From NCBI RefSeq assembly GCF_000969765.1, contig NZ_CP011096.1:186001-250000 (forward strand): a stretch of DNA of 64,000 nt. The letters run 5' to 3'. The translations under genes were made by a program, and so were the position numbers. Shown here in pieces: positions 5,786 to 45,011 of this stretch. This stretch comes from Mycoplasmopsis synoviae ATCC 25204. GTDB taxonomy: Bacteria; Bacillota_I; Bacilli_A; Mycoplasmatales; Metamycoplasmataceae. Positions within the stretch are counted from its first letter, which is position 1. Every line of letters begins with the position of its first letter. Below the pieces are notes generated by a model, which saw only the letters and a program-made list of their open reading frames with translations, searched no databases and had not been told where the DNA came from.

Positions 5786-5787
5786 TT

Positions 5788-8014: not shown

Positions 8015-8041
8015 AAGTTGTCATGCAAAGTGACAATTTTT
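8011..8041 (+). terminator. Terminator ending the obg-thrS operon
   Basis: A stem TTGTCA / TGACAA extended by A-T pairs and followed by a T-run, overlapping the stop of the membrane protein. Confidence 0.75.
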
Positions 8042-8078
8042 ATTTTAATTTTGTAAAATATTTTAAAAGAAATAAAAA

Positions 8079-9578
8079 ATGGAAACTTTATTTATAGTAT
8101 TAATAGTAATGGTTGCAGTTCTTATTGTAACTGCTTTTGCCACAATTGCATTTTTCGTATTTAACAAAAAGAAAGCCGCAACAACTCAAAGTGAGGCGCC
8201 AGTAGTAAGCGCTCCTGATTTAAATAATAATAGCGAGCTACTTCAAAAGTTAGTGGAATTAACTACTAATTTAAAAAATAGTGATGAAAATTTAAAAAGT
8301 TTTCAAACACAAACAGATTTAAAAAATCAAGAAGTTAATAACACAATTATTAATGTTGTTAATGAAATCAATAAAGCTATTGCGCAGCAAAATGAAACAG
8401 TAGCAGATAAAATTTTTAACCAATCTCAAAACCTTATTAAAACTTTAGATGAAAATAAAAATGAAACTTACAAAATTTTATTTAATCAAAATCAAAACTT
8501 TAATCAATCAGTTCAAAAACAAAGTCAACATTTAAATAAAGAAATTCAATCTTTATCAGAAAATGTTAATCAAAAAGTTACAAATAGCTACAAAGAATTA
8601 AAAGAAGAATTTAACAATTATTCTAAAACACTAAAAGATGAAATGTCTAAAAAAATAAATGAAGAAATTTCTAAATTTGGTGAAAAAGTTAATTTAATTA
8701 GTAGCGATGTAAATCAGCTTGCATCACTTAGAAACGATTTAAGTGAAATTAGAAAAATCTTTGAAGATAATAAAACCAGAGGAATTTTTGGTGAAAAACT
8801 TTTAGAGAATTATTTAAATGACGCAATGCCTAATGGTTACAAAAGTCAATTTCAACTTTCGAATAAAAAACAAGATAAAGTTGATATTGCAATTCCAATT
8901 AATGTATCAGATAACAATCAAATTTATATTCCAATTGACTCTAAATTTAACTTAGAATCTTATAGAAGTCTTTTAGATTACATAGATGCAAATAAAAACG
9001 AATTAGATTTTCCTAAACAACAAAAAGCAATTAATAATTTATGAAAAAACATTAAGGCAGAAATTATGGCTAATGCTAAAAGTATTTCTGAAAAATATAT
9101 AATCGAAGGCATAACTACCAACGTAGCTTTTATGTTTATTCCAAGTGAAAGCATTTATCTTGAGCTTGTTAAATATGAAAAAGGCTCACTAGTTGATGAA
9201 ATTAGAAAAAAATATAATATCGAATTAATCTCGCCATCACTGGTTATGGTTTTAGTTTCTATAATTAAAGATTTATATAGCAAATTCAACATTGGAATTC
9301 ATAACAAAGACATAGTTCATTTAATCAAGAAATTTGACGATAACGCCGATAAAGTTATTAAGAGCACAGCAACGCTTCTTAAAAAACAAAGTTCATATTT
9401 ACAAGAGCTTGAAAAATGAGTTAAAACTGTAAATGACGCCTTTTCTACTTACAAAAAAGAAAAAACTAAAATTACTTCTAAAAAAAGATTATCTGAATTT
9501 GAAAGAATTGAAAAAACTCTAACTGGAGAAACTCCAGAGTCACTTATTGTTGAAGGCGAAATTCTTGAAATAGAATAG
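8079..9578 (+). CDS. rmuC: DNA recombination protein RmuC
   Basis: A 499-residue RmuC-family protein. An N-terminal membrane helix (about residues 3-28) is followed by a long coiled coil rich in Gln, Asn and Lys (about residues 50-230). The RmuC domain follows, with RGIFGEKLLENYL, a PIDSKF motif near residue 286 and AFMFIPSESIYLELV. RmuC proteins are thought to limit inversions at short repeats and have a predicted nuclease-like fold, which is notable in a genome with a recombining vlhA array. It is a single gene with its own terminator, and TGA-coded Trp is used twice. Confidence 0.92.
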
Positions 9579-9579
9579 C

Positions 9580-9620
9580 AACTAAAAAAGCTTTAGAAAT
9601 TCTAAAGCTTTTTTAGTTGG
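9580..9620. terminator. Bidirectional terminator rmuC / hinT
   Basis: A long, nearly perfect inverted repeat (CAACTAAAAAAGCTTTAGAA and its complement) between two convergent genes. It has A- and T-runs on both sides and can serve both. Confidence 0.85.
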
Positions 9621-9624
9621 ATTT

Positions 9625-9945
9625 TTATTTGTAAGGAACTATGTGAATGTGTGTATGAAATACAGTTTGTTTCCCTTTTATGCCGGTGTTTATCATTAAC
9701 CTAAAGTCTTTAATTCCTTTATCTCAAAGTCTTTCTTTGGCAAGTTTATATGCTACTTTAAAAGCATAGGTCATTTCTTCTTCGCTGTGAGTTAGCATAT
9801 TTGGTTTTTCACTTTTAGGAATTACTAAAAAATGTCCTTCTGAAACAGGAAAAGCATCCATTATAGCAATAACTAAATCATCTTCGTAGATTATTTCAGC
9901 TGGCAACTCGCGATCGATTATTTTTTTAAAAACTGATTTTTCCAT
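9625..9945 (-). CDS. hinT: HIT-family protein (HinT)
   Basis: A 106-residue histidine-triad nucleotide hydrolase or transferase. The protein begins MEKSVFKKIIDRELPAEIIYEDD and ends with the triad HTHIHIVPYK, the catalytic H-x-H-x-H. Length is typical of HinT. Its ATG overlaps the stop of the upstream lipoprotein (TAATG). In Mycoplasma hominis HinT is encoded with the surface proteins P60 and P80 and has been reported to interact with them; the same gene order is seen here. The role of HinT beneath a surface complex is still unclear. Confidence 0.95.
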
Positions 9946-11141
9946 TATTTTGCAACAAAATCTTCCCCTGCTAATTTTTCTTTTAAGGTCTCATTATTTA
10001 CTTCTAGTAAATATCCTAGCGCTACAAAAGCGCTTTTTGCGGTGTTATATAATTTATCATCGTAGGCGGCTAAATTAACTTCTAAATTAAATAATTTACT
10101 TGCATAAGCGGTTTTATTAAATGATAAAACATCTTTACCATCAATGGTATCTTTTATTGGCGCTACTTGATTAAAATAGCTTACTTTTAAAAGCTGCCCA
10201 TCTCTAGAAACAAATACTGGAGCTTCTAAGCTGGTATTTGAAAGAGGCACTAAAGTATTGTTTTGGTAGTTGTAAAATCCACTTAATTTTTTAGCTTCAG
10301 TTACTTTCAGTAGTGATTTAAGATCGTAGTTTAATTTAACTTCTGCAGGAAGCGCTTTTAAATTAGCAAATCCTCCCATTGTAACTTCGGCAGCTCTGTT
10401 ATTAGCGTTAAATAAAAGCTCTTGACTGGCAACGTTTAATAGCGCTGGTGTGTTTTTAAGTAAGTTATTGTAGTCACTAACATTTTGTATGCTTCTTGTT
10501 AAAGTTGAAAAGACATCGTTTTTATCACTTTGATTATCATAGCTTCAACTTTGCACAAGTTTTTTATTTAGCACATAATCAATTAAGTTAAATTGATTAT
10601 TGTCGTAGTTATCTTTTTGAAGTGCGTAATTTTGATTTACTTTTTGAAGTGACTTAGCATCGTTAAGCTCGAAATATTTTAAAACTAAAAGAAGTTTTTG
10701 AGTGTTAAATTTAACATCAGTTTCGTCTTTGTTATATGCTAGTCAATATGAAGTTTCATCTACTGAGCTTTTGTATTTTTTAAGTGAATTTAATTCAGCA
10801 GATTCATTAAATAGTCCTTTTAAATTTCATGAATTAACTTGGTTTCATAAATAAAAAGGATCTTTTAAATTTTGACTTGCAACATAAACTTTATAAGCAT
10901 TTAATGCTTCTTGTTTGTATTTCTCGTTACTGGTTAATTCAGCGCTAGTTGATCCATATAAAGACGCAAGACTTTGGTCTAGTCAAAACTTTTCAGCAGC
11001 GAGCTTGGCATTATCAGAATTAAGCAGTTTATCTTGAGCTACTTTTTCTGGATCATCAACTATAGTCCCACAAGAAATAGCAATAGCGCTTACTGGCATA
11101 ATTGCAGATAGTGTTAATAATTTTTTAAATTTATTTTTCAT
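9945..11141 (-). CDS. P60-like surface lipoprotein
   Basis: A 398-residue lipoprotein. The N-terminus is a basic region, a hydrophobic stretch and a lipobox (MKNKFKKLLTLSAIMPV, then SAIAISCG), with the lipidated Cys near residue 24. The rest is extracytoplasmic, rich in Lys, Asn, Leu and Ala, with no catalytic motif that I recognise. It shares TAATG overlaps at both ends, with the P80-like gene before it and hinT after it. The P60 name rests on this gene order and on lipoprotein character, not on an alignment. Confidence 0.75.
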
Positions 11142-13306
11142 TATTTTGAAATTAATACCTTAACTATTAAATCTTGTGCGCTTTCACTATTTCCTAAATA
11201 AGTAGGAGTTGATCCATTAAATCCTGAAATTATTCTAGCTACGCCATCTTTTACACCAAAGTTATATGAATTCTGTGACACTAGTGAATTATTAATTAAA
11301 TTTGAAACGCTAGTGAAGTTTTGAATTTGCATTTTGCTTTTATTACCTGCAATAATTGATGCGTTTTCTTGCTTGATTTTGGAGATATCTTCATCTCTAT
11401 AATTTGACTTATCTTTTGAAAATGGATTTTCTTTGGTTTTTAGATAAGAAACAAAATCGGCATCATTAAGCATGTGAGCTAAAATCACGTTATCATTTTG
11501 ACTTTGACTAACTGCTTGTGGCAGGTTAAATATGTCTTTATTACCTTGAGCTACTGAATACAATGTATTTTTGACAAATTCTTTGAAGTTGTCAAAGCTT
11601 GTAAAGTTTGTATATTGTTGAATTGAAATTTTATCTTTAGAAACTACTAAATATGCATTAGGCATATCTTTAATTGTATAAATAAATGAAACTAAATTAT
11701 TTCCACCAACATTTTTAACTAGCTGATTTGTATATTGTCTAACTAAAAGAGATGAAAATTCGGCATTAGACATATTGGTTAAATATGATTCGATAAATTG
11801 ATTTAACTCTTTGGTTTTATTAAATGCATCTTGATCTGAGGTTGCGTTTTTGGCAGCAGTTAAAAGAGTTGAAAATCTTGAATAAGCGCTAGGATCATTA
11901 GTTCTTATATTTTCAAAGTCAAAGACTTTACTTAAATCAACTTGTGGCAGATTTGATGCATTAAGAGCTGAAGCTAAAACTTTGCTTCAAATAGATGATA
12001 GCCCTTGCTCGGTTCCATTTTGAAATACGCTTTCAATGCTTTGAAGCCCGCTAGTTCCATAACTATCACCTTTAGTTAAAGTTAGTGTATTTAAAAAGGT
12101 TTGATAGTTTCCTTGATTAACTGTAATTTGAGATTGTGAAAGAGCTTCTGTTGGAGTTGGGAAATAAGAAGTAGCTGGCTTTAGTTGTTTTAAAATTTCG
12201 CTTCCGCTTAAAATTTGTCTTTGTGAATTAGTATTTTTAACAGATCAATATTTAGCAAGGTTGATAAATTTAGCTTTAGCGTCAACATCTAAAGTAATAG
12301 CGTTTGTAACTGGCGAAGATAATTTTCCTGGAAGATCTACGCTGGTTACTACATGTAAATCATTTGCGTCAAAATAGCTTTTTAATATTTCGCTTGGATC
12401 TTTTTGTGAAGATACAAATGATTTAGTTAAAAAAGCAGTTGCTAGATTATTATTAGCTGCATTTAAAAAGTAATTTGAGCCATCTTGGTAAAATGAATTA
12501 ACTCTTTCCCCGCTTTTAATTAAAACTTGTCTTTGACCATTGCTTGAGATTTCATTACCATTGGCATCTACTTTGTAAATATCTCTACTTGCAAGCTTAT
12601 TAATTTCACTTCTAGTGGTATTTACAAATTCAGGTTTAAATCTTGCTTCAGCATAAGTTTTAATTTCATTGTAGGTTAGATTTTCAATAGCTTCAGTTTC
12701 ATCTTTAGCGCCTGAATATTTAGGATCAGTTGAAAGAGTTTCAGTGAATTGTTTTTGTCAATTTTGAAAACCATACACTGAAATATAATTACGCTTTAGA
12801 TCTTCAACAACTTTAGTTTGTTTTTGTTTGATTTCTTCAAGCGATGAAAGCGCGATATCATTTCTAGCGCTTTGGCCAAGTGCTAGCGATGCATTATAAA
12901 CTCTTTGTTGCTCTACTGATGCTTTGTATTCTTGATCGTATAAATAAAACACAAGTTTTTTAGTAACGTCGTTTATTTCTTCGTTAACTTGTGCATCGCT
13001 TCCTTGAACACTTTTAGTAACTGAACCTACTGTTAGCTTTTGGCTGCCATCACTAGAATTTGGCCCTTTAAAGGTAAAAGCAGTTGACGAATCGTCAACT
13101 GGGCTTATTACTGTAACTGAATTAGTAGTAACTCCAAGTGGAACAGCTATCGCTAAAATAACTCCTACCGATAATAGCGATAGTGTTGCTATTGCTGCCT
13201 TTTTACGAGTTGCTTGGCTATTTGATACTTTTTTTATTTTCTTGTTTTCATGAATTTCATTTTTTTCACTTAAACGCTCAAAAAATGTTTTTTGTCTTTT
13301 TGCCAT
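11141..13306 (-). CDS. P80-like membrane surface protein
   Basis: A 721-residue protein with a basic cytoplasmic N-terminus (about residues 1-35) and one hydrophobic helix (about 36-58). No Cys follows the helix, so it is probably anchored by an uncleaved helix, with the rest outside the cell. The start is supported by AGAGG upstream of the ATG. First gene of the P80-P60-HinT locus, transcribed from a promoter divergent to the gene at 13403. In M. hominis the P80/P60 pair forms a surface complex. Assignment is from synteny and topology only. Confidence 0.72.
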
Positions 13307-13363
13307 AAATTGACCTCTGCATAATAAAAATGAATAAATTCATATTTATCAAAATTATTTTAA

Positions 13364-13395
13364 ATTATACTAAAAATACAATATTAAATTATAAT
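13364..13395. promoter_or_regulatory. Divergent -10 boxes
   Basis: On the minus strand, TATAAT at 13364-13369 serves the P80 operon with a leader of about 50 nt. On the plus strand, TATAAT at 13390-13395 ends 7 nt before the ATG at 13403, a near-leaderless arrangement. Confidence 0.5.
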
Positions 13396-13402
13396 TAAAA
13401 AT

Positions 13403-13951
13403 ATGCACTTGGAAAGTCTATTAAATTCACTTATTTTATTTAATAAAATGGCCAAAAAAAACAAAATTGTTTTTTCGGTTTGTGGTCAAAGTTTAAATCA
13501 ACTTTATTTTTCAAAAGAGCTACAAGCTCCTTTTGAAATTGCACTTAGTTTTGAAAATTACAACAAACTTTTATTTGATAAAAATTTCAAAACTAGCGAT
13601 TATAAATTAAATGTTAATGATAACCCCCTTCCTAGGTTTTTTCTTGATAATAATGAATTTTGAATTAATTTATTAATTCCAAGTGAAACTGATTTGGTGC
13701 TTTCTAGCAAAACCAAAAAGTTAATTTATAAAATCAACCAAAGCTCAAAACATCAAAAAATTATTTCTTTGGTAGATTATCTAAATTCAAATAATCCTAA
13801 CACTTGAGCTTATTTATATTTTGATAGCGCTAGCCAGAAATTAAAAGTTAAAGCCGTATATAAAATTAATCCGAATTTTTATAAAGTAATCAAACTTAAT
13901 AAAAATTTATCACTGCCATATTTAAATTATTTTGAAGAAAATTTAAAATAA
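13403..13951 (+). CDS. Hypothetical protein, possibly a decayed LicD-like nucleotidyltransferase
   Basis: A 182-residue cytoplasmic protein without membrane segments. The N-terminal stretch CGQSLNQLYFSKELQAPFEI, followed by an ENYNKLL helix, loosely resembles the LicD pattern (a GxLLGAxR helix, a D-D-D strand, then a YEKFL helix). The acidic metal ligands of LicD are missing, so the similarity is weak and catalysis is unlikely. One TGA codon is read as Trp after residue 86 and others follow. Single gene, promoter 7 nt before the ATG. Confidence 0.6.
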
Positions 13952-13985
13952 TTTTTTTTATTTTTTCTTAAAAAAGAAAATAAAA

Positions 13986-14090
13986 AAAAGCAGCTCCCGA
14001 TTTTTGCTTTTCAGCTATCTTAGGCGCTAAAGGGCTTAACTACTGAGTTCGGAATGGTATCAGGTGCAAACCTTCGCTATGGCTACTATT
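13986..14090 (-). rRNA. rrf: 5S rRNA, stand-alone
   Basis: On the minus strand the conserved 5S core is visible (CACCTGATACCATTCCGAAC, then TCAGTAGTTAAG). The ends pair as helix I: 5' AGTAGC with 3' GCTGCT. No 16S or 23S gene is nearby, so the 5S copy is unlinked. A minus-strand TAAAAT about 10 nt upstream of the 5' end may be its -10 box; it lies just outside the IS island and has survived the insertion. End positions are good to a few bases. Confidence 0.85.
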
Positions 14091-14129
14091 GAAAATATTT
14101 TAACATAAAAAATAAAAATTAATAAAACT

Positions 14130-14204
14130 TTTTTTGTTTTTTATTTTTAAATTCAAGATTGGAAAAATAGTAGCGCCAAAGCGATATTTAGCAGTATTAA
14201 AACC
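14130..14204. repeat. 75-bp direct repeat, left copy
   Basis: Identical to 25157-25231 except for one base. It touches the left end of the IS deletion derivative at 14204. The sequence is the 3' tail and stop region of the chromate-transport gene whose intact copy ends in the right repeat. This is the pattern expected of a long target-site duplication, a known trait of IS1634. Confidence 0.9.
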
Positions 14205-14464
14205 CTGCGTTTCTAAGTTGTAATGAAGAAAAAAACGAATACACCTATAAATAAGGCGTATTCGTTTTTTGTGCTTTTAAATTACAATGATAGACCATCA
14301 ACCGCATATTGAAAATCACTATATATTTTGTTTAATTCCTTATGTTCTGGGTCTAAATTATTCTTGATTTCATTTACAACTTTACCATTGACAGTCTTTG
14401 TTGTGATTGTTATAAGTAATAAGGTAAAAGGTATAAAAAAGAGCTTTCAACTTGGAAATGCAGG
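14204..14464. mobile_element. 261-bp internally deleted IS1634-type element (MITE-like)
   Basis: The left 213 or so bases match the transposase-3' end of the IS copy at 18139 (terminal repeat, hairpin, last codons of the transposase). They then jump directly to the last 45 or so bases of the opposite end (aataaggtaaaaggtataaa, then the terminal repeat). About 1.6 kb of transposase is missing and both terminal repeats remain, so it could be moved by a transposase acting in trans. Confidence 0.85.
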
Positions 14465-14487
14465 GTACGTAAATATCGTAATAAAGT

Positions 14488-14520
14488 TAAATAGAAATAA
14501 CAAGGGTTTCCTTGCTATTT
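14488..14520 (-). terminator. Terminator after the type IIG R-M gene
   Basis: On the minus strand, a stem ATAGCAAGG / CCTTGTTAT with one mismatch around a short loop, flanked by A-T-rich sequence 20-50 nt after the R-M stop. Confidence 0.55.
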
Positions 14521-14538
14521 TTGATAATTTCATTTTAA

Positions 14539-16764
14539 TTAAATTTTATTATTAATATAATCTTCCATAAATTTTCAGTCCGGCTCTCACTCGTTTTTAT
14601 TATTTAGTTTTGCTGGCAATAAAATATTAATTTTACTTAATCTCTCACTACTCATAGAGTATGTGTAATCGAATAAATCGTGTAATTTAGACATAACAGT
14701 TGTTATAAAAAGATTAATAGAAGGGTTTAGATTACTGTTACTTAAAACACTAACCGAACTTGTTGCAGCAAAATCGTAACTATGTGCTTTTGCTATTCCA
14801 CTTGCTCCATCGCCTTGATTAACAAGTGTAAAGCAATTTTTGTTAAAGATTTTTTTACATTCTTTGATATAGTAACCAATCCCATTATAATTTTTAGAAG
14901 CAATAACAAGAGGTATTTTTCCATCTTTATTATCGGGGTTGTTTTCATCAGACTTATCTTTACCATTTTCTATATTAAATAATTCTATAATCTTAAATTC
15001 TTTTCAATTATTAAAATCCAATTTAGCATCAGAAACTTGAATTGTTGATAAGTCTATAATTCCATTATTTTCAATTATTAAATTATTGATATCTTGAGTT
15101 AGTAGAACAAAATCAAGCTTTTGTCTCACAAAATCAAGCTTTTGTCTCACAAAATCAAGCTTTGATATAGTGGTATAATCAATAGCTTCATACTTAGGCC
15201 AATCTTCTTCTGCCTTTAGATTTACAATTTCTCATTTTTCTTGATTAAATATTTTTTTAGCTAAATCTACGTGATGCTCAGTTCTTCCTATATTTCGGCT
15301 TTCAATATAGCCATCATCTAAGAAATTTTTTCTTTTTGTAGCTTGACTATATTTTGTATGAGCTTGAATTGTTATTATAGCAGTTTGAACAGATGCATTT
15401 GGATGGAAAAGCTTTTTAGGTAATCTAATAACTTGTAATAAATTATGGTTTTCCAAAATTAGCCTCTTGTATTTTAAGTTTTCTGGTACAGTGCTTTTAG
15501 TTTTTTTTGCGCTCAAAATACAGCTAATAGGAACAATTGCTGATACTATACCACCAACTTCCATATTTTGCAATGTTTCATATATGAATTTTAATTCATT
15601 ATCTTTTTGTGAAAAAGGTGGGTTCATTAACGCACGATTATATACATCCTTTAATTCCGGCAATTTGTTGAAACAGTTATCTTTAAAAATGTGAGAACTC
15701 CCATCTCCATGCAGCATCATATTTATATCAGAAAGTGTAGCATTAAACATATCACTTTCAACACCATATAGACCTTCTTGCAATACTGCTTTTTTTAAAT
15801 TATTTTTACTTTCGTCATTTATGTTTAGACCTTCTATTTCCTTCAACATATTAAACATAGAAATTACTAAGAACGTACCAGAACCACAAGTTGGATCAAG
15901 AATTTTGCTTTCATAAGAACAATCTGCTAACTTATACATCAATTCCGCGATATGGTCTGGTGTAAAAACCTCCCCTTTTTCTTTAGCGTTTGCGGAATTT
16001 CATTTTCTAAATACTTTTAGAAAGCCATTCATTGTATCATGACCTATTTGGTCTTCTACATTAATAAAGTTATAAATAGATGAAATATCACTAATTAAAG
16101 AAATTAGGTGGTTATAATCAATTTCATTTAAGCTTTGCTCACTTAAAATTATTTTTATTTGTTCTTTCTTAAGTTTTTTATTTTTAGGGGTATCTTCTAT
16201 ATATTTATTGATAGCGTTCTTGATATTTAGCAAAATATCTTTTGAATTATTACTACTTATTTCTTCTTCAAAATTTTTACAATATTTTAAGCATAACATT
16301 ACTGCGCCAATAAAAGGTACATTATTTTGTCTGCTTACTCTTGCGTTTCTAAAATCATTTGCTAACTTCTTTGCAAAAGTATTTATTTTTTCTGGTAGGG
16401 TAATTCTTGCATTAGGAAAGTATTTTGATATATATTCCTTTGCTGTTTTTATTTTTGTCTCTTCTTTGACCAGTTTGCCTTGAACATAGCATTCAAAATT
16501 TTTACCATTATATTTAAATCCTATGAAATTAGGATTCTTCTCTAATTTCATATAATCTTCTAGCTGTCCTTCAAATTCCTTGCCCTCAGCTTTTGCATCT
16601 AAAATAAATGTTACACCATCTAAATAGTAATAGCCATCGGGTTTCAAGGACATAGAATGATTTTTATTAGGTTTTTTATATATAAACAATGTCCCATCTG
16701 TTTTGTTTTTTAGCTCCAATTTATTAGTGAATTCATTCACTATTTCGAATTCAGTTTTGTACAT
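14539..16764 (-). CDS. Type IIG restriction-modification enzyme (nuclease, N6-adenine methyltransferase and specificity domain in one chain)
   Basis: A 741-residue protein. The N-terminal part has a PD-(D/E)xK-like nuclease signature: LKPDGYYYLDGVTFILDAKAE near residues 37-58. The methyltransferase core carries motif I LDPTCGSGTFLV (about 284-295) and motif IV NPPF (about 360). The C-terminal quarter looks like a type I HsdS-style target-recognition domain (WKEFKIIELFNIENGK, then IPLVIASKNYNGIGYYI). A linker of three repeats of KLDFVRQ joins the two. The frame is open if TGA codes for Trp, so it is probably intact. It follows the ribbon-helix-helix gene by 14 nt with AAGGAG before the ATG. 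The recognition site cannot be read from sequence. Confidence 0.82.
15108..15165 (-). repeat. 21-bp tandem repeat encoding KLDFVRQ units
   Basis: Two full 21-bp units and a partial third, encoding KLDFVRQ-KLDFVRQ-KLDFV between the methyltransferase and the target-recognition domain. The unit length is a multiple of three, so gain or loss of a unit would change the linker but keep the frame. Confidence 0.9.
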
Positions 16765-30888: not shown

Positions 30889-31959
30889 ATGAAAGAAACT
30901 AAACTCAAGAAGCCAAGCTCAAGCTCGGTTATGCTTGAAAAAATAGTGCCTAATTATGTAACGCTTGATAATAGCTCACTAGATGAAAAAAAGTGATACG
31001 TAAAACTTTTTAACGTTGAAAGTCCATTGCTAAAAAGCACTTGAAGATTTACCAAAATTATTTTAGAATTCTTTACTATAGCTTTTATTGTTATTACTAT
31101 TACTTTCTTTTTAATTAACTCAGTGCCAGGAGATACCGGAGTAGAAAGTGGGCTCTCGGAAGCACAAAAAGTAGCAGTAAGGCAGCAATTAGGATTAGAC
31201 CTACCACTATTTAATAGATATTTAAATTATATTCGTGATTTATTTAGAGGTGACTTTGGGGTATCTTTAAGCGTTTTCCCAAGAACTTCTATAAATGATT
31301 TTATCTTCGATCGGCTTATTACTTCGCTTTACGTTGGACTATGAAGTGTTTGTCTTACTGTAATGATCGGGGTACCGGTTGGAGTTATAGTAGGAAAGCG
31401 TCCTGATGGAATCTTAGATAACATAACAACCGTTATTATTTCGATTTTATCATCAGTTCCTTCGCTAATATTTGCCATACTTCTGCTTATCTTAGGAAAA
31501 AATTTAAACATACCTTATATATTTGACGTTAAGAACTTTGCAACCTATGTATTGCCTGGATTTGCCTTGTCACTAGGTTCGATAATTGTTTATATTAAAT
31601 ATATAAAAACAGAGCTTAATAGAGAGCTAAACTCTATGCATTCAAAATTCTGCTACCTTAAAGGACTTTCAAGAAGTAGATTTGTTTGAACTCATGCTCT
31701 TAAGCCATCGCTATTCCCAATTGCAACCTTTTTCCCAGCCGTGGTACTAGGGAGCTTTGTTGGGTCAATATTTATAGAAAGAATCTTTACTATAACTGGT
31801 TCTGGAAATATTTTATTTAGCGCCATAACCTCAAAAGATTACAACATAATCTTATTCCAAGTAGTATTCTTTTCACTACTTACCATACTATCATACACCA
31901 TACGTGACATACTATACGAACTTATCGATCCAAGAATTAGAAGAAAAGGAGGAAGATAA
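30889..31959 (+). CDS. oppB: Oligopeptide ABC transporter permease OppB
   Basis: A 356-residue permease with a long cytoplasmic N-terminus (about 55 residues) before the first helix (TIAFIVITITFFLINSVPGD). About six helices follow. RQQLGLDLPLFNRYLNYIRD and LFRGDFGVSLS are typical of OppB/DppB. The coupling loop is near LKGLSRSRFVWTHALKPSLF. It forms the membrane channel with OppC. AAGGAG precedes the ATG, and its stop overlaps the oppC start (TAATG). Confidence 0.93.
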
Positions 31960-32948
31960 TGAAATTTGGCCTTAAGCCTACTAAAGCAAAAACGCAATCT
32001 AGAAACGATTTATCAAACAAAGACGCGCCTAACCCGCTGCTAAAGCCTTTTGCTTATCAGCAATGAAAAATGGTCGGTAACATTTTAGAATACCGTGAAA
32101 GTGCTTATCTAAAAACTTCACTAAGCCCATTTAAACAATTTTTAAATAGATATTCAAAGAGCTGATCTGGAGTATTTGGTTTTGTATTTTTAGTTGCAAT
32201 CTTTTTATTAACTTTCCTATTTCCTTTAATTTGAAACGATACCTCAGCAAGTAACGACGCCAAAGATGGCTACTTGCAACCTTTCTTTAAAGGGCATTTA
32301 TTAGGAACTACTTCAAGAGGAAATGACTTTTGAACATTAATTTGACACGGTCTTAGATATTCACTTCTACTATCACTTGTTGTTACATTAGTGGAAGTGT
32401 TTATCGGAGTTACATTTGGAATTTTAATGGGACACTTTGAATGATTTGATAAAGCTTTTACGTTTTTTATTAAAATCTTTTCAGTTATACCAACCATTAT
32501 TATTTTGATACTTGTAACTATAGTAATAAATCCTACCTTTTGAGTTATAGCTCTAGCGCTTAGCCTTACCGGATGAACTGGAATGGCTAACCAAATAAGA
32601 GCTCAAGTTAAACGTGCTAAAAACTTTGAATGAATTTCTGCATCTAAAGTTTTAGCTACTCCTACTTATAAAATTCTTCTAAGCTATCTTCCAGTTATAG
32701 TTCCAATACTAGTTACTCAGCTAGTATTTACCATCCCTGGAGTTATACTTTCAGAAACTTCACTTGCTTTCATAGGGCTTTCAATTCCTGATGCCATAAC
32801 CCTTGGTACATTAATTAACGAAGGAATAAATACATTTTCAATTTATCCTCGTTATGTACTAATTCCTGCTAGCTTTTTAATAGTTATAACCACTAGCGTT
32901 CAATTAATAGGATCTGCGATCCAAACTAGCCTTCTAAAACAAAGATAA
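31959..32948 (+). CDS. oppC: Oligopeptide ABC transporter permease OppC
   Basis: A 329-residue permease with a long basic cytoplasmic N-terminus (about 70 residues) and then six helices. HLLGTTSRGNDFWTLIWHGLRYSLLLSL is the usual OppC periplasm-to-membrane region, split here around two TGA-coded Trp residues. The coupling helix lies at EWISASKVLATPTYKILLSY. It partners OppB and is energised by the two ATPases that follow. Confidence 0.93.
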
Positions 32949-32953
32949 TTACC

Positions 32954-34711
32954 ATGAAAAAATACTATAAAGAAACTACTAATTTTAAAACAACCTATCG
33001 TCCGATTGTCGAAGGTTTAGATACAATGCTTAACGCCTACCCAGAGCGTGATGTACTTGTTCAAATTAGGCATCTAGATATCATTTATGGCTCAGGATTT
33101 AAAAAATTCAGAGCCATAAATGATTTATCACTAAATATTTATCAAGGTGAAGTTTTAGGGCTTGTAGGAGAATCAGGATCAGGAAAGTCAACCACCGGGA
33201 GAGCAATAGTAGGACTTACCCCATATCAACATGGACACATTAAACTTGAAGATGTTGTAGTTCCAAGAAAATTTAGCCGTGGCTTTAAATTTGGAAAAAA
33301 ACTTCAAGATTACAAAAAAACTCTTAATTATATGGCCAACAAAGTGCAAATGATCTTCCAAGATCCGGCCAATTCACTGAATCCAAACAAAAACATTGAA
33401 AAGGTAGTTAGCGAAGGGCTAGATAACCTTAAAAACTCAAGGCTAATAGCGCTTGCTACGTTTGACCTTGCTGTTTTAAAAGAACTATCTACCAAAGGAT
33501 ATAAAAAAGAGCTTTGCACATTTTTAAAAGTTGCAGAAAAAAAATACTATTCAACTTTTGAATCATCACACGTTTTCAACAAAAAAACGCTATATACAGA
33601 CGTTAGAGATTATTTTGCTAAAGCAAATAAGCCCGAGTCTAAAGAACTTGTTAAATTCTTAAACGATAAATCTAAAGAGCGTGAAAAATTTGAAAAAATG
33701 TCAGATAAAGCCCTTAAAAAGCATTTAATTGTTGACATTTTAAAACAAGTAGGACTTGATAAATCAGTTCTTAGTAGATACCCACTGGAATTTTCCGGTG
33801 GACAGCAACAAAGAATCGGTATTAGCCGTAGTATAGTTCTAAGACCTAAAATGCTAGTAGCTGATGAACCTATCTCAGCGCTTGATGTTTCGATACAAGC
33901 TCAAGTTGTTAATATCTTTAACGAACTTAAAGAAAAATTCAACCTTACCATTTTATTTATAGCTCACGACCTTAGAATGGTTGAGTATATCTCAGATAGA
34001 ATAGCAGTTATATATAAAGGTACCCTTTTAGAAGTAGGGCCAACTCATGAAGTTGTTAAAAACCCACTTCACCCTTATACAAAATCTCTGCTTGACGCTG
34101 TTCCTTCGATAGAGTCTAAAAAAGGAAGCCTAATAGGATTTGTATACGATCCTTCAATGCATAAATACACCAAAGAAGTCCAACCAGTTTGAAACGATTT
34201 AGGTAATAAGCATTACGTATTTGCTACCAAAGAAGAAATCTCAGCTTGAAAAGCAAATAAATATGACCAGCTTTCAACTAGAAAAGACGCGCCAAAATCA
34301 GAATTTGACATTCAGACTCATTCTTTTGGTAAAGATGCTAAAACTAAAAAACCATTATCTAGCAGTCTTTTAGCTAAATTAAAAGAACTAAAAGAAAGCT
34401 TAGCTAAAGCTACAAAACCAGCTAAGGCTAAACCAATGCAATCTAAGCCAGCTCAAGCAAAGCCATTAGATCCTAAAGCAGCAGCGCCTGCTACAAAGGA
34501 AGTACCTAAAGCTAAGCCTGAGGCAAATTTACAAGATAAATCTAATAAAGCCAACTCAAAAAGTCAACTTCATTCAGAATTAAATAATACAAAAACCGCT
34601 AAAGATAGCGTACTTGAAGAATTTAGAAACGATAGCAAAGTATCTTCAGCTAGAACTGCTCAAGAATCAAGAAGATCTTGAAATCTAGATAAATTAGATA
34701 AGAAAAAATAG
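32954..34711 (+). CDS. oppF: Oligopeptide ABC transporter ATPase, OppF type, with insertion and tail
   Basis: A 585-residue ATPase. Walker A is GESGSGKSTTGRA (about residue 72) and the Q-loop is MIFQDPANSLNPN. An insertion of about 100 residues, rich in Lys and helix-forming, precedes the signature FSGGQQQRIGISR (about 280). Walker B is LVADEPISALDVS, and the H-loop is IAHDLRMV. The P-x-SLNP and SALDVSIQAQVV wording is OppF-like rather than OppD-like, although the gene comes first. After the usual end a tail of about 170 residues continues, rich in Lys, Ala and Pro, through two TGA-coded Trp residues. This tail looks disordered. Confidence 0.88.
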
Positions 34712-34720
34712 GAGTAAATT

Positions 34721-36019
34721 ATGAATAAAGAATTTAAAGGTTATTCAAAGCTTTACGATAAACCGTTAAAGCATGAAAATAAAAATACCTATCATGAATT
34801 AAAAGATAGTTTTACTCATCATAAAAAAGTTTCTAAATGAAAACAAGTTGAAAATAATTACAAATCTTTTTTAGAAAAGCTAAGATTTGCTAAAAAAGAA
34901 TTCAGACTTCAAGATTTTATTAAAAATGCCAAAACTGAAAAAGTTTTTGGTAAAGATACCGTGGTTGCAGCTGAAATTGAAGATATCCATCTATCATTTT
35001 TAAATCCAGCTAACCCTAAAGAAAAAAACGTGGTTCTTCGTGGAACTAGCCTTAAAATTTATGAAGGTTATGTTCACGCGATAATAGGAGAATCAGGTTC
35101 AGGAAAATCTGTTATTACATCGCTTCTTTACGGATTAACCGGAAATAACGCAGTAATTGACTTTGGAAAAATTAAGTTATTTAACAACGAAGTTCAAGAT
35201 TTTACATTTACCGATTGAGAGAATCGTAAAATTAGAGGAACTATAGTTTCAGCTGTTTTCCAAAACCCGATGTCAATTTTAGATCCGACCATGAAAGTTG
35301 GAAAACAAATAACCGAAGGACTATTAATTAATAAGGTAGTTAAAACCAAAATGGAAGCTAAAAAAGTAGCGCTTGAATACCTTAAGATGACAAAAATTAA
35401 TAATCCTGAAAAAATCATGAACGCATACCCTCATGAACTTTCTGGAGGTATGATTCAAAGGATAGCTATCGCTAGCGTAATGAGTCTTAAGCCAAAAATC
35501 TTGGTAATGGACGAACCTACCACAGCCTTAGATCCTACCGTTCAAGCGCTTGTTCTTGATATCGTTAGAGAATTTCAAGAAAAGCTAAAAATTGCAATAG
35601 TTTTCATAACCCACGATCTTGGGGTGGTGGCTTCTATTAGTGATTTTATAAGCATAATGTATGCTGGACAAATCGTAGAAACTGGAACCAAAGAAGAAAT
35701 CTTAGAGCATCCACAACATCCTTATTCATGAGGGCTAATAATGTCAATGCCAGATTTTAACAACTCTGAAAAGCTAACTACAATTCGTGGTAGCGTTCCA
35801 TCATCGCTGAATAACATTAAAGGTGATGCCTTTGCAGTAAGAAACGACTACGCTCTAGGAGTGGATTTAGAAGTAGAACCTGCAATGTATCAAATCTCTG
35901 ATACTCACTACGTAAAAAGTGCGCTTCTTGATGAAAAAGCGCCTAAATACGAGCTTCCACCTTTAATTAAAAAAATGTGACAAAAATATCATCAAAAATT
36001 AAAAGAATTACACCAATAA
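34721..36019 (+). CDS. oppD: Oligopeptide ABC transporter ATPase, OppD type
   Basis: A 432-residue ATPase. The first 80 or so residues are a charged extension unlike typical OppD. Then Walker A IIGESGSGKSVITS (about 122), Q-loop VFQNPMSILDPTMKVGKQI, signature HELSGGMIQRIAIAS (about 240), Walker B ILVMDEPTTALDPTVQ and H-loop FITHDLGVVA. The C-terminal region resembles the oligopeptide-transport domain but lacks an obvious Cys-rich iron-sulfur motif. GGAG precedes the ATG by 7 nt, and GGAG follows for the next gene. Confidence 0.9.
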
Positions 36020-36029
36020 AGGAGTATAA

Positions 36030-39000
36030 GTGGCAAAAGTAAAACACGTATATAAATACTTAATTGCGGCAGTTAGCTTTTTAGTAGCCGGTGGTGTCTC
36101 GCTTGGAGCTGTAAAGCTATATAGCGATAACTCTAGCCAAACTAAAGGAGCGCTTAACCCTGCTGAAAATGAATTAGTAAATGTATTTCTAGCTAAAGAT
36201 TCTAGCCCAGAATTAAAATTTCTACTTCAAGATAAAAAAACTAGCGTTGCTAGTTTTGGAAAATACCAAGACGGTCAAGATAATCTAGATAGAGTGACAT
36301 ATAATGGAAGATCATATGAATATGAGGATTTTTTCAATGTATTTTACCTACAAAATGGATTTTTACCAGTACTTGAGATAAGCTATGGTTCATTTAAGTT
36401 CTACAATGAATATCTAGAAGCGGTTCCACCTCATGAATTTCTAAAATTCGCTCAATGATTTGTTAAAAACGTATCATGAGGACCTGACATGTTAACACTA
36501 AAATCATTTAGCATAGTTAAAGGAGTTCAAAGAGATGGTAACTCTATAACACTAGGGCAACACTTAAACGCTAATAAAGAACTTCAAACCATAAAATTCT
36601 ATCCTGATGCTTTCTTTGGGTCTCTTTCTCTATATTCATTTTTAGCCGGAGAAGGAAACCTTCAAGATTCTCTACTATATCGTTTAAATTCAGTATCAAT
36701 AACCGAAGAAGAACTTGACTTTTTCCTTAAAAATGCTAAAAAATTAAACATCCTAGCTAATGAACCTAGAAATACTCAACAAAGTAACATCAAATTTAGA
36801 AATCTTTTAGCAGCGCAAAGACTTCAAAATAGAAAACTTTACGTTTATAGCGATTCAGAAGCTGGCGTAAAACAAGTAGTATTTTTAAAAGAATACGACC
36901 CTGAAAGCGCTAGCTCTCAAAGCGAGGCTCAAGCAAGACTTAGAGATCTTTTAAAAGATCCTTCTTTTGTATTTGATTCTTCAAAACTTAAAGAATACTA
37001 CGTATCAGGTCTTGGAATGGCTAACGCTGATTTACTAAGCAAAACCTATCCAGAATTAGCTTCACTAGATTTAACACCAAGCGAAGAAAAAGAAACCGAC
37101 TTAAAAAATCTTCCAGTTACAAGAAACGGAAGAATGGCGCTATATCTACGTTTTGTAGATGCAGCTAAAGGTGATGGTGCAATAGAAGCAGCTAAAAAAG
37201 CTGAAGAAGCTCTAGAAGCTAAAGTTTTAGAAGATCTTCAAACCAATGCAAATGATACTGATGCTAAAGCTAAAGTAGCAGCAGAACTTGACGCAATTAA
37301 AAAAGCATTATATACTCCAGATGAAACTCTTTTAGTTACAGATTATGATTATTCAGCGCAAGCTTTATCAAACTTAGATGAATTAGAAAAATACGAATTC
37401 AGCCAGCCAACTGTTGATTTTTTAGACTACTACGATCTAAAAAGCCTTGTTGGAAAAACATTTAACCTATACCAAAGCCCTCAACCACAACAAGATCAAA
37501 GCGAGTCTCAAGAACAAAGTGAAACTCAAGAGCAAAGCTCAACAGAAAATACCGAAAATACCGCATCTGCAGTTGCACCAGGATTTCCTGGAGCTACTCA
37601 GCCAGCAACGCCTCAAACAAGTTTAATGGTGCCAGAAGCACCTGTTAAAAGTGATGCAACTGATGCTATGGCAGCAACAGTTGTTGATCTAAATGATAAG
37701 AAAAATTTAACTTTATTTTCACCTAATGGAAAAGAAGTTGAATTCGCCAAAAACTATGCAAGTTTAGTTGATGAGAGAAACTTTAAAGACGCAGAAACAG
37801 GAAAAGTTGATTTTCCAGCTTTTGATACAAACTTATTATCACAAGCTAGAGTATCAGATATTTCTGTAGAAAATGGAGTTTTAACAGTTGATTTATTAAC
37901 TCATAATGCTAAATATAGATACAGCGTTGATGCTAAATCAATGAGCGATAGAGATTGAGATTTTGTCCAAGAGCTATTTTCAAAAGCAGGATATGTTAAA
38001 TATCTAGATCCATACTTAGTAAATCTAGATAGTGATATCGTTATCCCTGAAGGCAAAAGAGAAAGAACTTTCACACTTTACTACAGTGCCTACCAAAATC
38101 TTCTTGATAATATTTCAAGAAAAATGCCTTATTTATTATCAGATAGAACCGGGCCTCACGTTGTTAAAAAAGTAAACGACCAAGGTGTTGTTGAATATAA
38201 ATTAGAAGATGGTCCATACAAAGGATTTAGCTCAGATGATAATATCGGTCTATGAGCTGTATTAAAACTAAGCGATCCTAAATTCAAAGGAATGTCAAGT
38301 GATTTCCTTCGTTTCGTTGGAGCTCACGAATACGGTCACCATATAACTCTAACCGGAGCCCAAGACTTAGGAGATAAGCAATACGATCCAGTTCTAGCTT
38401 CTGCGCAAAGCCCTAGAGGTGCAACTAATATTCAAAACTTTATCTCTAAGGAAAATCTAGACTTATATTTAAGAGCTAGAACTCACTTAGAAGCTAAAAC
38501 TACAAACCTTTACGCTCAAGGTGAAAAAGAAATAAACTCTCTTCCTGAATCAAACACTGGAAACTTTGTTAACTATGGATTCCAGAAAAAAGATGGAAGC
38601 TATGCCTACGAAACTCAAAGTGATGTTTGAGGAGCACCTAAAGCTGATCCAAGTATAGTTCGTGCTTTAACTAACCCAAAAAGAAGATTCCTTCAAAACT
38701 TTGAAGGTCTACAAAAAGCATTACAAGAAAGAAAAAAAGACTACAATCTTTCTGATAATGTTGACTTATTCGATCTTTGACTAACAAATGCATTTGACGA
38801 GCAATCTGGAACACTTAACCCTACAATAGAAGGAACTGCTCAATACTTCCAAGTAGATACTTCTTCTCCTACTGGATATACCTTTAAAGATGCAAGTAAT
38901 GATCAAATTAAAGACTATCTAAAAGATGGTTTAGGTCAAAAAATTGAATACAGCAATGGTGGATTTGTATTATTTAAATTCGTGCCATACGATCCACAAA

Positions 39001-41939
39001 ATGGATTATTCAAACTTACTTCAAATAAAGTTAGACGTGAAAACGGAGAACTTTACGTAAATATTCCTGAAGGAAGCGTTTTAACAACTGCGCAATTCTC
39101 AGAGTTAAAAAGAATCGAACGTGAATTTAACGAAAACGTTAATAACTTCATCGTTAAAAGATTTAGTTCAAATGGATGAAACACCGGTACTGCTATAACA
39201 GATACCAACGTTCAAATAACTAATGCCGTTCCATATTCACTTAGATATACATCTCAAGATGAATTAGTAAATGGTGAATATTCAAAAGCTACTGAATTCT
39301 ACAAAAACTTTGTAAACAAAAGATCATGAACAAATGGTTTATTTGGTAATGATGAATTTACATTCAGAACTGCAGAAGCCGATGATTATAATATTACCTA
39401 CTGACCATTATATTTTGCTAAAACTTCATTCTATGGTCCTGAAAGTTACCGTAATGCATTAATATTTGATGAAGGCGCTTTAACAAAAACTAGAGAATAT
39501 GCTTACAACTTCCCAGTTAGATTCCCTGGACTTTCAATAGCAGAAGTTAATGAAACCTTAACAGAATTTTTAACTTTATTCCCTAGAACTTTAACTCCTC
39601 AAGAAAGAAGTGCTAAACAAAATCAAATAAGAACTGAAGCTGAAAGAAGAAAAGTATTTGACGTATTCATGCAAACATCATATGCATGAAGAGGACATTT
39701 ACCTGAATATAATGTTGTTGATACATTAGGTGGGAATAAACTATTTTTAAATAGTACTCACCAATATGTTCCTAACTTTGCTCAAAGAAGAGTTGTATAC
39801 AATACAAATACAAAAGAAACAACATATAAAGATCCATACAAGAGTTCGTCATTTTTAAACAATACTCCAATAAGCATTAGTAACGTGGTTAATGGTCTTG
39901 TTTGATTTAAAAACCTAAACGGTAGAATTTATAGTGACTATGCACCATGAATGCGTCCAATCGGAGCAGTAGATAATGACGGACAACAATTTGCAACAGC
40001 ATATTTCTTTGCCGATGAAAATGGAACTGAAATAGAAGCTGAATCACCAGATGAAACAACAAAAGTTGATCTATCAAAAAGAAATGCTCAAACTTTAGTT
40101 GTTAATACTGACTTTGGTGTAAGCGATGTTCAAAATGGTGTTTTTGGAGCTATTAAATTAAGCCCTGGAAAAGATAAAAGAGTTCTTAATGATTTAGAAG
40201 AAATGTTTGATTTCATGACAGTTGATTATGAAAAAGCAAAAGCAACTTATGATGCAGCTACAAAACAACAAGTTCTTAATTGAGATATCGATTACGTTGA
40301 AGCTCGTTTAGATCTAGAAACATTTAGAAGTAGATACTTAAGCTTCTTACAAAACTATAAAGGTAGATTATTTACCAATAAAGAACGTCAAGATTTAATT
40401 GACTTATACTCAAAGCCTCTATCAGAAACAAAACAAGAAGTTGCAAACCAAGCAATGCAAAGATTTTTAAGATCTGGATATGTTCCATTTGCAAAAGACT
40501 ACCAACTTAAAGATTTCCTTGCTAAAAGAGATAATTTATGAGTTTTAGATAAAAACGTTGGGGTTGATAACCTTAAATCAAGCTTTGTTGATTTAACTGT
40601 TACAGATGCAGATGATAATAGAAACGTTGATAGATATCTAAAATTCGTTAAAGAATACTTTGATAAACATCAAATAATGTACGATAACTTAACATTATTT
40701 GATCTACACTTATTAACCGGAATTACATGATTCTTGCCAGATGCAAAAACTTCAAGAGGTTTCGTTAACAAAGAGGCAGGACAGCTAACCGTAAGAAACG
40801 GAGTTTCATCTGACGTTGATTTATACTTTAGCACTAAGATATCTTCAGAAACCGGATCTATATTCTCAGATTATGTATATTCATACGCTGAGCAAATAAA
40901 CCGTGATTACCTACAAACTACTTATACTCCATCATATGATCAATACGGAAACCGTCCTGATTATATTTCTGGAATAACCGAAGTTACCACCGGGCTAGAA
41001 TATATAGTAGATGCAACCGCATCAAATAAATATCAAAACTTCCAAGTGGATTCTGAGGTAACAAATAACATGCTTACTTCTAATGTGATTCCATATTATG
41101 TGGAACAAAACAATAGAAATAGAGCAGCTAAAAATGGACTTCCTAACTACGAGTCATCAAAAAGAGATAACTACTTCTACTGACTACCTAAATACACCAA
41201 CAACTTCTTTGGAAAAATAAGAAGCTTTAACAATGGTTGATATAAAGATAGATTCTATAGAACCAAACTTAACTGAGAGCTTTATGATGAACACGGTCTA
41301 GACAAGCAAGATAATTCAATTAGAATTAAAGACCTTCTTGGACAGACCGTTACTTCAAGAGCTAAAGCTTACTGACAGTACTTAATCCAATCACAAGGAA
41401 TTGGAGATAGAACCCTTTCAGGATTCTGAAGAGATAGTGATAAAGATGCGGTAGCCTTCTATGGATACTTTGATTTAGAAAAATCTCAAGATCTAAAATA
41501 CCTTGCATTTGAAAATACAGCAACTAAAGAAGTTTCATATCTTCCAGTGCATGTATCGCATACTAATAACCTATTCTACTACACCAAACAAGCGCCTGAA
41601 AATGGCTATACAGACGTGAATCGTCACTACATAAAAGACGAGCCATATCTTGACAAAAAAACAAATACTCAAAGAGTTGGTTTTGCTTCTTGAGTATCAG
41701 ATTATGCCTTAGTTTCACAATATAGAAATCGGCTAGTTTCACCTGGAAATACATACAACGTTTACTTTGCAAATTCAAACAAAGAAAAACTAGAAGATGT
41801 AGATTTAGGAAGCCTAGTATCTATGGCGGAAAACGGTAAATTATTTAACCAGTCACCTTTAACTGTTCAAAAAGTGGAAAACACCGACGGAACACATTCA
41901 GCAGTATTAAACGTAAAAGACCAATTCAATTCAAACTAG
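36030..41939 (+). CDS. Giant PDxFFG-family surface protein with HExxH zinc-protease motif
   Basis: A 1,969-residue protein, open throughout with about 30 TGA-coded Trp codons. It starts with GTG (GGAG spaced 5 nt before). One N-terminal helix (about residues 9-29) lacks a lipobox Cys, so the rest is probably extracellular on an uncleaved anchor. FYPDAFFGSLSLYSF near residue 192 fits the PDxFFG name used for mycoplasma proteins of this size. FVGAHEYGHHITLTG near residues 763-777 is a clear HExxH zinc motif. A Gln/Ser/Glu/Thr/Pro-rich linker spans about residues 480-545. It sits between the Opp ATPases and OppA, so it could cut host proteins into peptides for import. The activity is inferred from one motif only. 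Confidence 0.8.
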
Positions 41940-41946
41940 GAGTTTT

Positions 41947-42315
41947 ATGAAAAACAAAAAACTTAAATTAATTCTTGTATCATCAGCATCAGTATTAGCG
42001 CTAGCAGCAGTTACTACTGCTACAGCAATTAACCTTAAAAACACCAATTATGCAGACGCTTACAAAGGGCCAAGCACAAAAAGTGATAACGTTAAAATTG
42101 CTGAAGCTAGATTGAACCTAGAACAAAGAGATCCAAAACAAGGCTTTGTATGTAACTGTGCAATTCTGCTTACCCAACACTACGGATGACAACACACTAA
42201 AAATCAAGAACAATTAATCAAAAGCGTATTAGATAAAGCAATATTAGGAGAAACCCTTAGCAGAACCGAGCAAGAACTTCTTGACTCACTTGCTAAAGAT
42301 TGAAAAACAACTTAA
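41947..42315 (+). CDS. Small membrane-anchored protein in the opp operon
   Basis: A 122-residue protein starting MKNKKLKLILVSSASVLALA, with one N-terminal helix (residues 7-28) and no lipobox Cys. The rest is charged and holds a CNC pair near residue 70 (FVCNCAILLTQHYGW). AGGAG lies just before the ATG. Its TAA shares an A with the OppA ATG (TAATG). I do not recognise it. Its position suggests a helper of the PDxFFG protein or OppA. Confidence 0.65.
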
Positions 42316-45011
42316 TGAAGAAAAAAATAAAATATTCTCTAGGACTAGCGCTATCAAGCTTAATGGCTCCTGCCATTGCCATTTCTTGTGCTAGCAATGC
42401 AAGCAAAGAACCTACGCCGCTACTATCTAACAATAAAAAGTTAGACTATGACTTAGGGCTTTCAGCTCCTTCGCTTAACTCACTTAATTACGTTTTATAT
42501 AAATCTGTTGATTTAATCGTTCCTTCTTTAGTTGACACTGTTTATAAATTTGGCCCAGTTAGCGAACTTCAGGCTATTTTAGGTAAAACTCCGCTTACTT
42601 TTGGAGTTTATGGAAACAATAACAACTCAGTAAGCCTTGAAAAATACGTAAATAGTCCTGACTTGGAAAATAACAACTACCAAAGTGATAGATCATATCC
42701 ATTTGATAACTTTGGAATTGATGTTGGTGCTGGATCATTCCAGGCGCTTAGCGCTCGTGGAGGAAGAGGTCTTTTTACTCCTAATGCTAGGGTAATAACC
42801 TATACCATTACCCTTAACGATGGAAGAAGTCGTTGAAGTAATGGTGATGTGCAAACTGTTGATGATTTTCTTGATTACATTCACTATATAGCTGATATTA
42901 ATACTGGTTCACAAAAACAAATAGATCTTCTCTCTCGTGATATTAAAGGTCTTGATCAATTTGTTTCACTACAAAACGAATACCTTAAAAAATTCGGAAC
43001 AACTTATAAAAACCCATGAGGATATCCTCCTTATGAAAAAGTCAATGGCAAATGACAATATAAAGTAGATGCCAGAGACGAAAATGGAAACCAATTAAGC
43101 AATAAAGACTACCTTTGACCTTCACAAAATGAAGGAGATGAGCAAGACGTTGAAAAAATTCAACAAGCAGCGCTTAATGTTGGTTTCTGAAGTGGTAGAT
43201 TATTTTTCAATATCTCAAATAAAGACTTATATAACTTATTAAAACTAGAAGACAACAAAGACGTCGATCCTTCTGATGGAGATACTATAACTCTTAAAGA
43301 CGAAGACGGAAACGATTTAGTTTTAAGAAGAAATCCATACATTGACCCTCGTCAAGTATTTCAGTATGCTAGAATTGACTCTTCAAACTTCCAAAGTTAT
43401 GAAGATGCAAGGCTAATTGGAAAATACATAATCTTCGCAAGAGATGAGCATGAATTTAGAGTTGAATATGCCGAGTCTAATCCAAAGTCAATCGATGATA
43501 TGATTAACGATTTAAATAGAAACTGACTTCCTATAAATAGAGCATTTGTTGAAAATGAACTAGGCGGAATTCAAAACTTTGGAAAAGATAAAAGAAGTAT
43601 ATTAACCAATGGTCCATTTTTAATAGATTCATTAATTCTAGGATCTCAAGGTTCGCTAACTCTAGCTAAAAACCAATCATATTTCAATGTTAATAGAACC
43701 ATATCTAATAAAATAAAAATCTACTTTAACGATGAAAGAAACTTAGAATCTGCAATGTTTTCAGATGGTTATATTGCCTTTGCAAAAATTCCATCAGTGT
43801 TGCAGAAAAAATTCTGAGCCGATCCTGAATTTAGAAACTTAATGTCTAAAACCACAGGGTATGGAACACTTGGGTTTATGTTCAATTTAGATCAAGAAAC
43901 CAATAAAGATTCATATATAAACGATCCTGATTTAAGAAATGCATTTTATTATGCAATTAACCGTGAAGTTATGCTATTTAACTCAGGGTGAAATAACTCT
44001 TATCCAGTTATAACATGAACCGGATTTGGTAACGCGCATAAATCAGATGGAACTGCAATTGAATTTGGTTTCCAAGATCAATGAACAACTCCTAAAGGAA
44101 GCTATGCAACTGATCAAAAAGTGCCACTTCAAAACTATAGCTATGGAGATCACTTATCTAAAAACTATAAATTTGAAGCAACCAATAGAACCGATCAAGG
44201 ATATCGTCCTGAAGTTGCAAAACACTATATGGAAGTTTTCAAAGCAAAACATCCAGGTCTAAAACAAGTTAATTTAACTTATATCTTTAATTCAACCGAA
44301 GAGCAACGTAACGTAGGGCTTGTCCTTAAAAACTCACTAGAGCTTTTATTTGGAAACTTTATTAACTTAGAGCTAAAAGCGCTTCCTGAAAACGTTTATA
44401 TTTCTAAAGTTGAAGAAGGTGATTTTGATATTGCCTATAAAAACTTTGATAGCTTTGGAACAGAAATTGATTCATACGTTAAAGCCTTCTTTGTTGAAGA
44501 TGGAATTAACCGTGAAAACTCGAAAACAACCGGATTTAACTTAAACCCATCTGGTGGATTTACCTATAAAAAATACTTCGATAGCCTAGCAGATTCTAAA
44601 GATTTAGTAAATGGCAGCCTAGTAGCTAAAACCGAAGAAGAAACCAGAAAACGTTTAGGAGTTTCACAAGAAATCTGAGACAAAATTAAAGAGCTTTCTC
44701 AAAGACGAGATGATGAAGATGAATTCCAATACAAAGATAGATATTCAAACTTCTTTAGTTATCAATTCACTGATAAAGAAAAAACCCAAGGATACGATGA
44801 AAATAAAGTTATTGAAATAGTAGCTGGTCTTGAAAAAATAATAAGAGATGCAGCTCCTGTAATACCTTTAATGGAAGTTGATACATTATGAAATATCTCT
44901 CGTGTTGGAGGAACTAGAAATCTATTTAGATACGATCTTCAATATGCATACGATATTGATCGTCCACCAGTTCCAGGACTTCCTAGAGTAACTGCCGGAC
45001 AATCATCATAG
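42315..45011 (+). CDS. oppA: Oligopeptide-binding lipoprotein OppA
   Basis: An 898-residue lipoprotein. MKKKIKYSLGLALSSLMAP, then AIAISCAS, places the lipidated Cys near residue 24. It is long compared with E. coli OppA (543) but usual for mycoplasma OppA. Solute-binding-family features include the WSNGDVQTVDDFLDYIHYI region and DPDLRNAFYYAINREVM, the family's A-I-x-R helix. In M. hominis the OppA homologue (P100) also acts as an adhesin and ecto-ATPase; I did not find a clear P-loop here. The start at 42315 overlaps the preceding stop; an in-frame TTG at 42300 is less likely. Confidence 0.9.

Follow-up and report, generated by a model that had tools for sequence, protein, structure and literature searches.

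We analyzed a window of 64,000 nucleotides from the chromosome (846,495 bases) of the mycoplasma Mycoplasmopsis synoviae ATCC 25204 (contig NZ_CP011096.1, positions 186,001 to 250,000, forward strand), with open reading frames (ORFs) translated with TGA as tryptophan (table 4), and focused on an opp peptide importer operon that contains a giant gene of the PDxFFG family. The operon is a head-to-tail run on the + strand (30889 to 45011) that codes for OppB, OppC, two ATPases, the giant protein of 1,969 residues, a small protein of 122 residues, and OppA, with gaps of no more than about 10 bp or small overlaps. An earlier note, made from the sequence of this DNA, had placed the giant and the small ORF between the Opp ATPases and OppA, with good ribosome binding sites and TAATG coupling to OppA. 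The ORF map and the start regions bear this out: a Shine-Dalgarno-like AAGGAG precedes the GTG of the giant gene, GGAG precedes the small ORF, and TAATG (42313-42317) joins OppA to the small ORF, which is the coupled gene. The description of both genes as built into the opp operon also holds, as this is a single tight operon, but the gene order of the window turned out to be only one of two found in the family. The OppA of the operon scores 66.8 bits against PF00496 (cut-off, 32.4) and has a lipobox-like AIAISC, recognized by eye, so it can be assigned to the Opp solute-binding lipoproteins.

The giant protein belongs to the PDxFFG family, as its residues 3 to 273 match NCBIfam NF012210 with 320.6 bits against a curated cut-off of 150. 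That model covers only 269 N-terminal positions of the family, and its description gives no function. PDAFFG is found at residues 192 to 197 (36603-36620), and the sole HExxH of the protein is HEYGHH, at residues 766 to 771. By composition, a protein of such length should contain about 0.01 HExxH motifs, and we rejected a chance occurrence. Hydropathy reveals one strong segment only, near residues 7 to 28 at the N terminus, in agreement with the earlier description of a giant single-pass protein, and a lipobox is absent, as the protein has no cysteine at all.

To place this protein in its family, we surveyed 320 Mycoplasmatales genomes, of which 103 gave NF012210 matches, 101 of them above the cut-off. 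(A single-sequence scan of the named genomes gave no matches, and an alignment-based scan gave 43 loci.) Around the above-cut-off matches, 111 loci were taken, leaving out one further gene (genome G102, contig C3) whose catalytic region was detected by profile. HEYGHH is kept in all 111 loci and PDxFFG in 108; loss of the motif among homologs, which the earlier note had named as a result that would speak against a protease, did not occur. Conservation was counted in an aligned region of 320 residues, using ORFs with HE..H, and there no His, Glu, Asp, or Cys past HEYGHH is fully invariant except E861 (111/111), which lies 95 residues beyond the motif within a loose ExxxDxWG pattern. The catalytic region, with a mean column identity of about 34 to 39%, was matched by its profile in 101 of the 320 genomes, a set identical to that with the N-terminal domain above the cut-off. 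Named loci come from M. agalactiae, M. hyorhinis, M. ovipneumoniae, and M. hyosynoviae (L144 for the last). Outside the Mycoplasmatales, no convincing relative was found in a sample of 395 genomes from across the class, with one partial match at an E value of 0.006. Three longer members (the long class has 2.6 to 3.3 thousand residues) were compared and retain the N-terminal, catalytic, and C-terminal parts, to which an extra insert is added ahead of the catalytic part and in one member also behind it; a scan of the insert in three long members found no known domains. Several genomes code for two PDxFFG genes (L116/L126, L111/L113, L080/L097, and L045/L107); in many cases an OppA accompanies each copy, and the two copies sometimes differ in size class. 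About eleven loci (L035, L036, L063, L066, L067, L079, L111, L113, L117, L119, and L142) have an interrupted PDxFFG frame; in L063 the interruption coincides with a run of G, which could reflect phase variation or a sequencing error.

The gene that follows is an OppA of the same subfamily in 106 of the 111 loci, most commonly after a gap of about 8 to 18 bp, a count that includes the window genome and Mycoplasma sp. Ms02, where other genes intervene. The five exceptions are three contig ends (L068, L077, and L081), the first copy of a tandem pair (L113), and an additional copy that follows an opp operon (L097). Genes for the permease or the ATPases lay alongside in 88 loci within the initial 20-kb stretches and in 106 after extension: 20 of the remaining 23 loci were extended downstream, and 18 of these show OppB, OppC, and both ATPases. 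The other two extended loci (L226 and L227) come from genomes that hold another copy beside permease genes (L126 and L142). Either the permease and ATPase genes precede PDxFFG and OppA, as in the window, or they follow them; the OppDn and OppFn labels of the two ATPases in these locus comparisons may be swapped. A gene order survey had been suggested in the earlier note as a check, and homologs proved not to lie away from opp genes. In L225, a tandem PDxFFG pair is followed by an opp operon with OppB-like (1,175 residues) and ATPase (918 residues) ORFs of unusual length.

We also built a profile from ten linked OppA proteins and applied a threshold of E<=1e-20. It matched 102 of the 320 genomes, namely every one of the 101 in which the catalytic region was found, plus genome G016; the remaining 218 gave no match. 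G016 gives only a weak PDxFFG match, and a very divergent homolog of 1,182 residues with HEYGHH immediately precedes its OppA gene; by eye, no opp permease genes were recognized flanking this pair. Co-inheritance with this one OppA subfamily is thus near perfect, and the genomic association is very strong; a Fisher test on the co-occurrence counts is extreme but ignores relatedness. The linkage is restricted to one kind of Opp, since the genome of the window has a second, diverged opp-like operon, beside a PepF-type peptidase gene, that lacks a PDxFFG gene. In this second operon (L205, G000:C1:417000-434000, positions 4554-15351), the neighboring PepF-like peptidase has HELGH, and the OppA-like lipoprotein is encoded in two overlapping frames instead of one (11181-13457 and 10483-11241).

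The small protein, with a single N-terminal hydrophobic segment by hydropathy, had been proposed as a partner of the giant one. An anchored ORF of 122 residues is indeed part of the window operon, but convincing matches were found in only 2 of the 320 genomes (that of the window and Mycoplasma sp. Ms02), so we rejected it as a general partner of the family and regard it as a lineage-specific extra. In Ms02, the small gene and a repeat-rich lipoprotein of 774 residues (L092:14261-16585, with an Asn/Ala/Asp-rich repeat tract) are located, in this order, between the PDxFFG gene and OppA. Both small proteins (window 41947-42315 and L092:13904-14251) share VCNC, six residues, HY, two residues, and QH, a pattern that may be a metal or disulfide site.

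Table 1. Features of the opp operon and of its giant PDxFFG protein, in window coordinates.
Feature	Coordinates	Strand	Basis
OppB permease	30889..31959	+	ORF list and NCBIfam
OppC permease	31959..32948	+	Assigned by position
Opp ATPase, 585 residues	32954..34711	+	ORF list and locus comparison
Opp ATPase, 432 residues	34721..36019	+	Top NCBIfam match OppD, under that model's cut-off
Giant PDxFFG protein, 1,969 residues, GTG start, proposed surface metallopeptidase	36030..41939	+	NF012210, 320.6 bits
N-terminal PDxFFG domain, residues 3-273	36036..36848	+	NF012210
Single N-terminal hydrophobic segment, residues about 10-28	36057..36113	+	Hydropathy
Proposed catalytic region, residues 640-945, modeled alone	37947..38864	+	Conservation, predicted model
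HEYGHH, residues 766-771; proposed zinc ligands H766 and H770, proposed catalytic E767	38325..38342	+	111/111 loci
E861, candidate third zinc ligand (ExxxDxWG)	38610..38612	+	111/111 loci
Conserved C-terminal region, residues about 1350-1969	40077..41936	+	Conservation
Small protein, 122 residues, one N-terminal hydrophobic segment, VCNC...HY..QH	41947..42315	+	ORF translation, hydropathy
OppA lipoprotein, PDxFFG-linked subfamily	42315..45011	+	PF00496, E value 2.5e-18; subfamily profile

An enzymatic role of the giant protein is likely, judged by the conservation of its motif rather than by fold or assay. We obtained two AlphaFold models, each from a shallow alignment of 44 sequences, of residues 600 to 1799 (1,200 residues; mean pLDDT, 72.5) and 640 to 945 (306 residues; pLDDT, 78.6; pTM, 0.55). 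In the predicted model, HEYGHH lies in a long helix behind antiparallel strands and E861 comes after a strand, and this placement of the motif helix after strands is compatible with zincins. The likeness to MA-clan zincins such as M13 and M48 consists of a predicted helix that carries HExxH, followed farther along by ExxxD; the PDxFFG protein differs from them in lacking a fold or profile match beyond the motif. An alignment with M13 by hhalign placed E861 opposite the ligand Glu of that family. Profiles of M48 and PepF score likewise, from the motif. A profile search of solved structures gave weak matches only, with E values no better than 0.09; MMP-2 accounted for two of the three, aligned at the motif, and a long alignment gave nothing useful; in a comparison sample, PF04228 was found in none of 100 genomes.

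Several of our results weigh against a peptidase that feeds the importer. Foldseek and VIA-align found no zincin and no significant PDB match for either model, although at this alignment depth a zincin fold around the motif may have gone unrecognized. A Pfam scan found no domain in the giant protein and no significant peptidase family in the catalytic regions of the family. Membership in M13 was rejected, as there was no match to PF01431 or to Pfam at large and masking the motif abolishes the profile signal; moreover, masking E861 leaves the M13 profile score as it was, and 4 of 60 column shuffles attain that score. The search for a third zinc ligand did yield a candidate in the invariant E861, but D865 of the ExxxD is kept in only 80 of the 111 loci, and the position of the third ligand has no clear alignment in the G016 protein. 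Finally, about two thirds of the genomes (218/320) do without the PDxFFG-OppA pair, and host dependence in general thus does not require it.

Known systems provide several points of comparison. PepO is an intracellular zinc enzyme of family M13, about one third of the length of the giant protein, and PrtP, the surface proteinase of lactococci, is not known to be of the HExxH type. The PDxFFG protein differs from PepO in its N-terminal anchor and in the absence of an M13 match; the likeness is that of a peptidase or peptidase-like gene inside an opp operon, as described for oppDFBCA-pepO of Lactococcus lactis, where an endopeptidase gene is part of the operon (PMC3138775). The genome of the window also codes for an M13 (PepO-like) peptidase (G000:C1:620920-621492), a candidate cytosolic finisher of imported peptides. 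Among mycoplasmas, the genes of the MIB-MIP system are adjacent. The PDxFFG system differs from it in having an OppA-type binder, a different catalytic motif, and linkage to a peptide importer, and no Pfam match to MIB or MIP domains was found in the giant protein or in the catalytic regions, so we do not assign it to MIB-MIP, in which a surface binder and a surface protease act together (PMC12994834). A literature search on the PDxFFG family, its motif, and opp-linked mycoplasma metalloproteases found a single paper that names PDxFFG (PMC10652285) and no functional account. In M. synoviae itself, the PDxFFG gene VY93_RS01090 showed the most significant upregulation on chicken cells, with its role called undetermined, and RS01085 and RS01080 (ABC ATPases) and RS01075 were also upregulated (PMC10652285). 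The adjacency of these four genes, as judged from their locus tags, fits the opp linkage. Additional operons with OppB/OppC-like genes amid hypothetical membrane proteins are described in M. hyosynoviae (PMC4398514). In M. agalactiae, oppB and oppC mutants showed no systemic spread, and the oppC mutant grew slowly with HeLa cells (PMC5073455). The induction in M. synoviae and these mutant phenotypes both count in favor of cut-and-import, although the mutants may concern another opp locus.

Taking all of this together, we consider it moderately probable that the PDxFFG protein is a surface metallopeptidase paired with its own OppA in the cut-and-import of peptides, and this is the simplest interpretation of the data. 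What the genomes show is the conserved motif, the operon with its gene order, and the shared inheritance with OppA; surface exposure, zinc binding, proteolysis, the substrates, and hand-off to OppA are inferred, and the protease role proposed by the earlier note is supported in part. The protein would be held in the membrane at the cell surface by its N-terminal segment, and catalysis would involve H766, E767, and H770, with E861 as the probable third ligand. Host or medium proteins, or long peptides, would be cut at the surface, the adjacent OppA would catch the products, OppBC and the two ATPases would import them, and cytosolic peptidases would complete the digestion. A bolder version, which we hold only tentatively, is that these giant surface metallopeptidases make up a new family, possibly with an HExxH fold in an arrangement not yet on record. 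Each would be permanently complexed with its own OppA and the permease and would channel peptides from the cut to the transporter, as an extracellular digestive machine in about a third of the sampled Mycoplasmatales species.

The main rival to cut-and-import is the processing of OppA itself: a metallopeptidase that trims or sheds the surface lipoproteins of its own cell, OppA foremost, and so sets OppA binding or adhesion, with nutrition secondary. The fixed one-to-one pairing with one OppA subfamily, retained in G016 where no flanking permease genes were seen, would suit such an enzyme, as would the widespread surface processing described in M. hyopneumoniae (PMC5593965) and the double function of M. 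hominis OppA as adhesin and ecto-ATPase (PMC3179953). Self-processing leaves unexplained the usual company of a whole permease (106/111), and we consider it unlikely. A protease directed against the host, for immune evasion or tissue damage, with the linked OppA-like lipoprotein as a capture subunit, has a precedent in the adjacent binder and protease genes of MIB-MIP and would agree with the induction by host cells; however, the binder belongs to a solute-binding family of peptide import (PF00496) with the permease alongside, and Pfam matched neither MIB nor MIP, which makes this role rather improbable. It is also conceivable that the giant protein is non-catalytic, an adhesin or a scaffold for Opp assembly whose HEYGHH binds a structural metal; the lack of a recognizable zincin fold would speak for this, as would a protein that is mostly fast evolving and without a recognized fold. 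Against this stand E767 and the downstream Glu: their invariance in all 111 loci is what an enzyme would show, and E767 would be dispensable if the metal were structural. We regard this last explanation as improbable indeed.

Mycoplasmas synthesize hardly any amino acids, and little is known about how they convert host protein into peptides that they can import. If cut-and-import by the PDxFFG protein and its OppA is true, a family that has a name but no function would acquire an enzymatic role open to testing, a partner of its own, and a connection to expression induced by the host, and there would be a reason for the genome of the window to keep a second, diverged opp operon.
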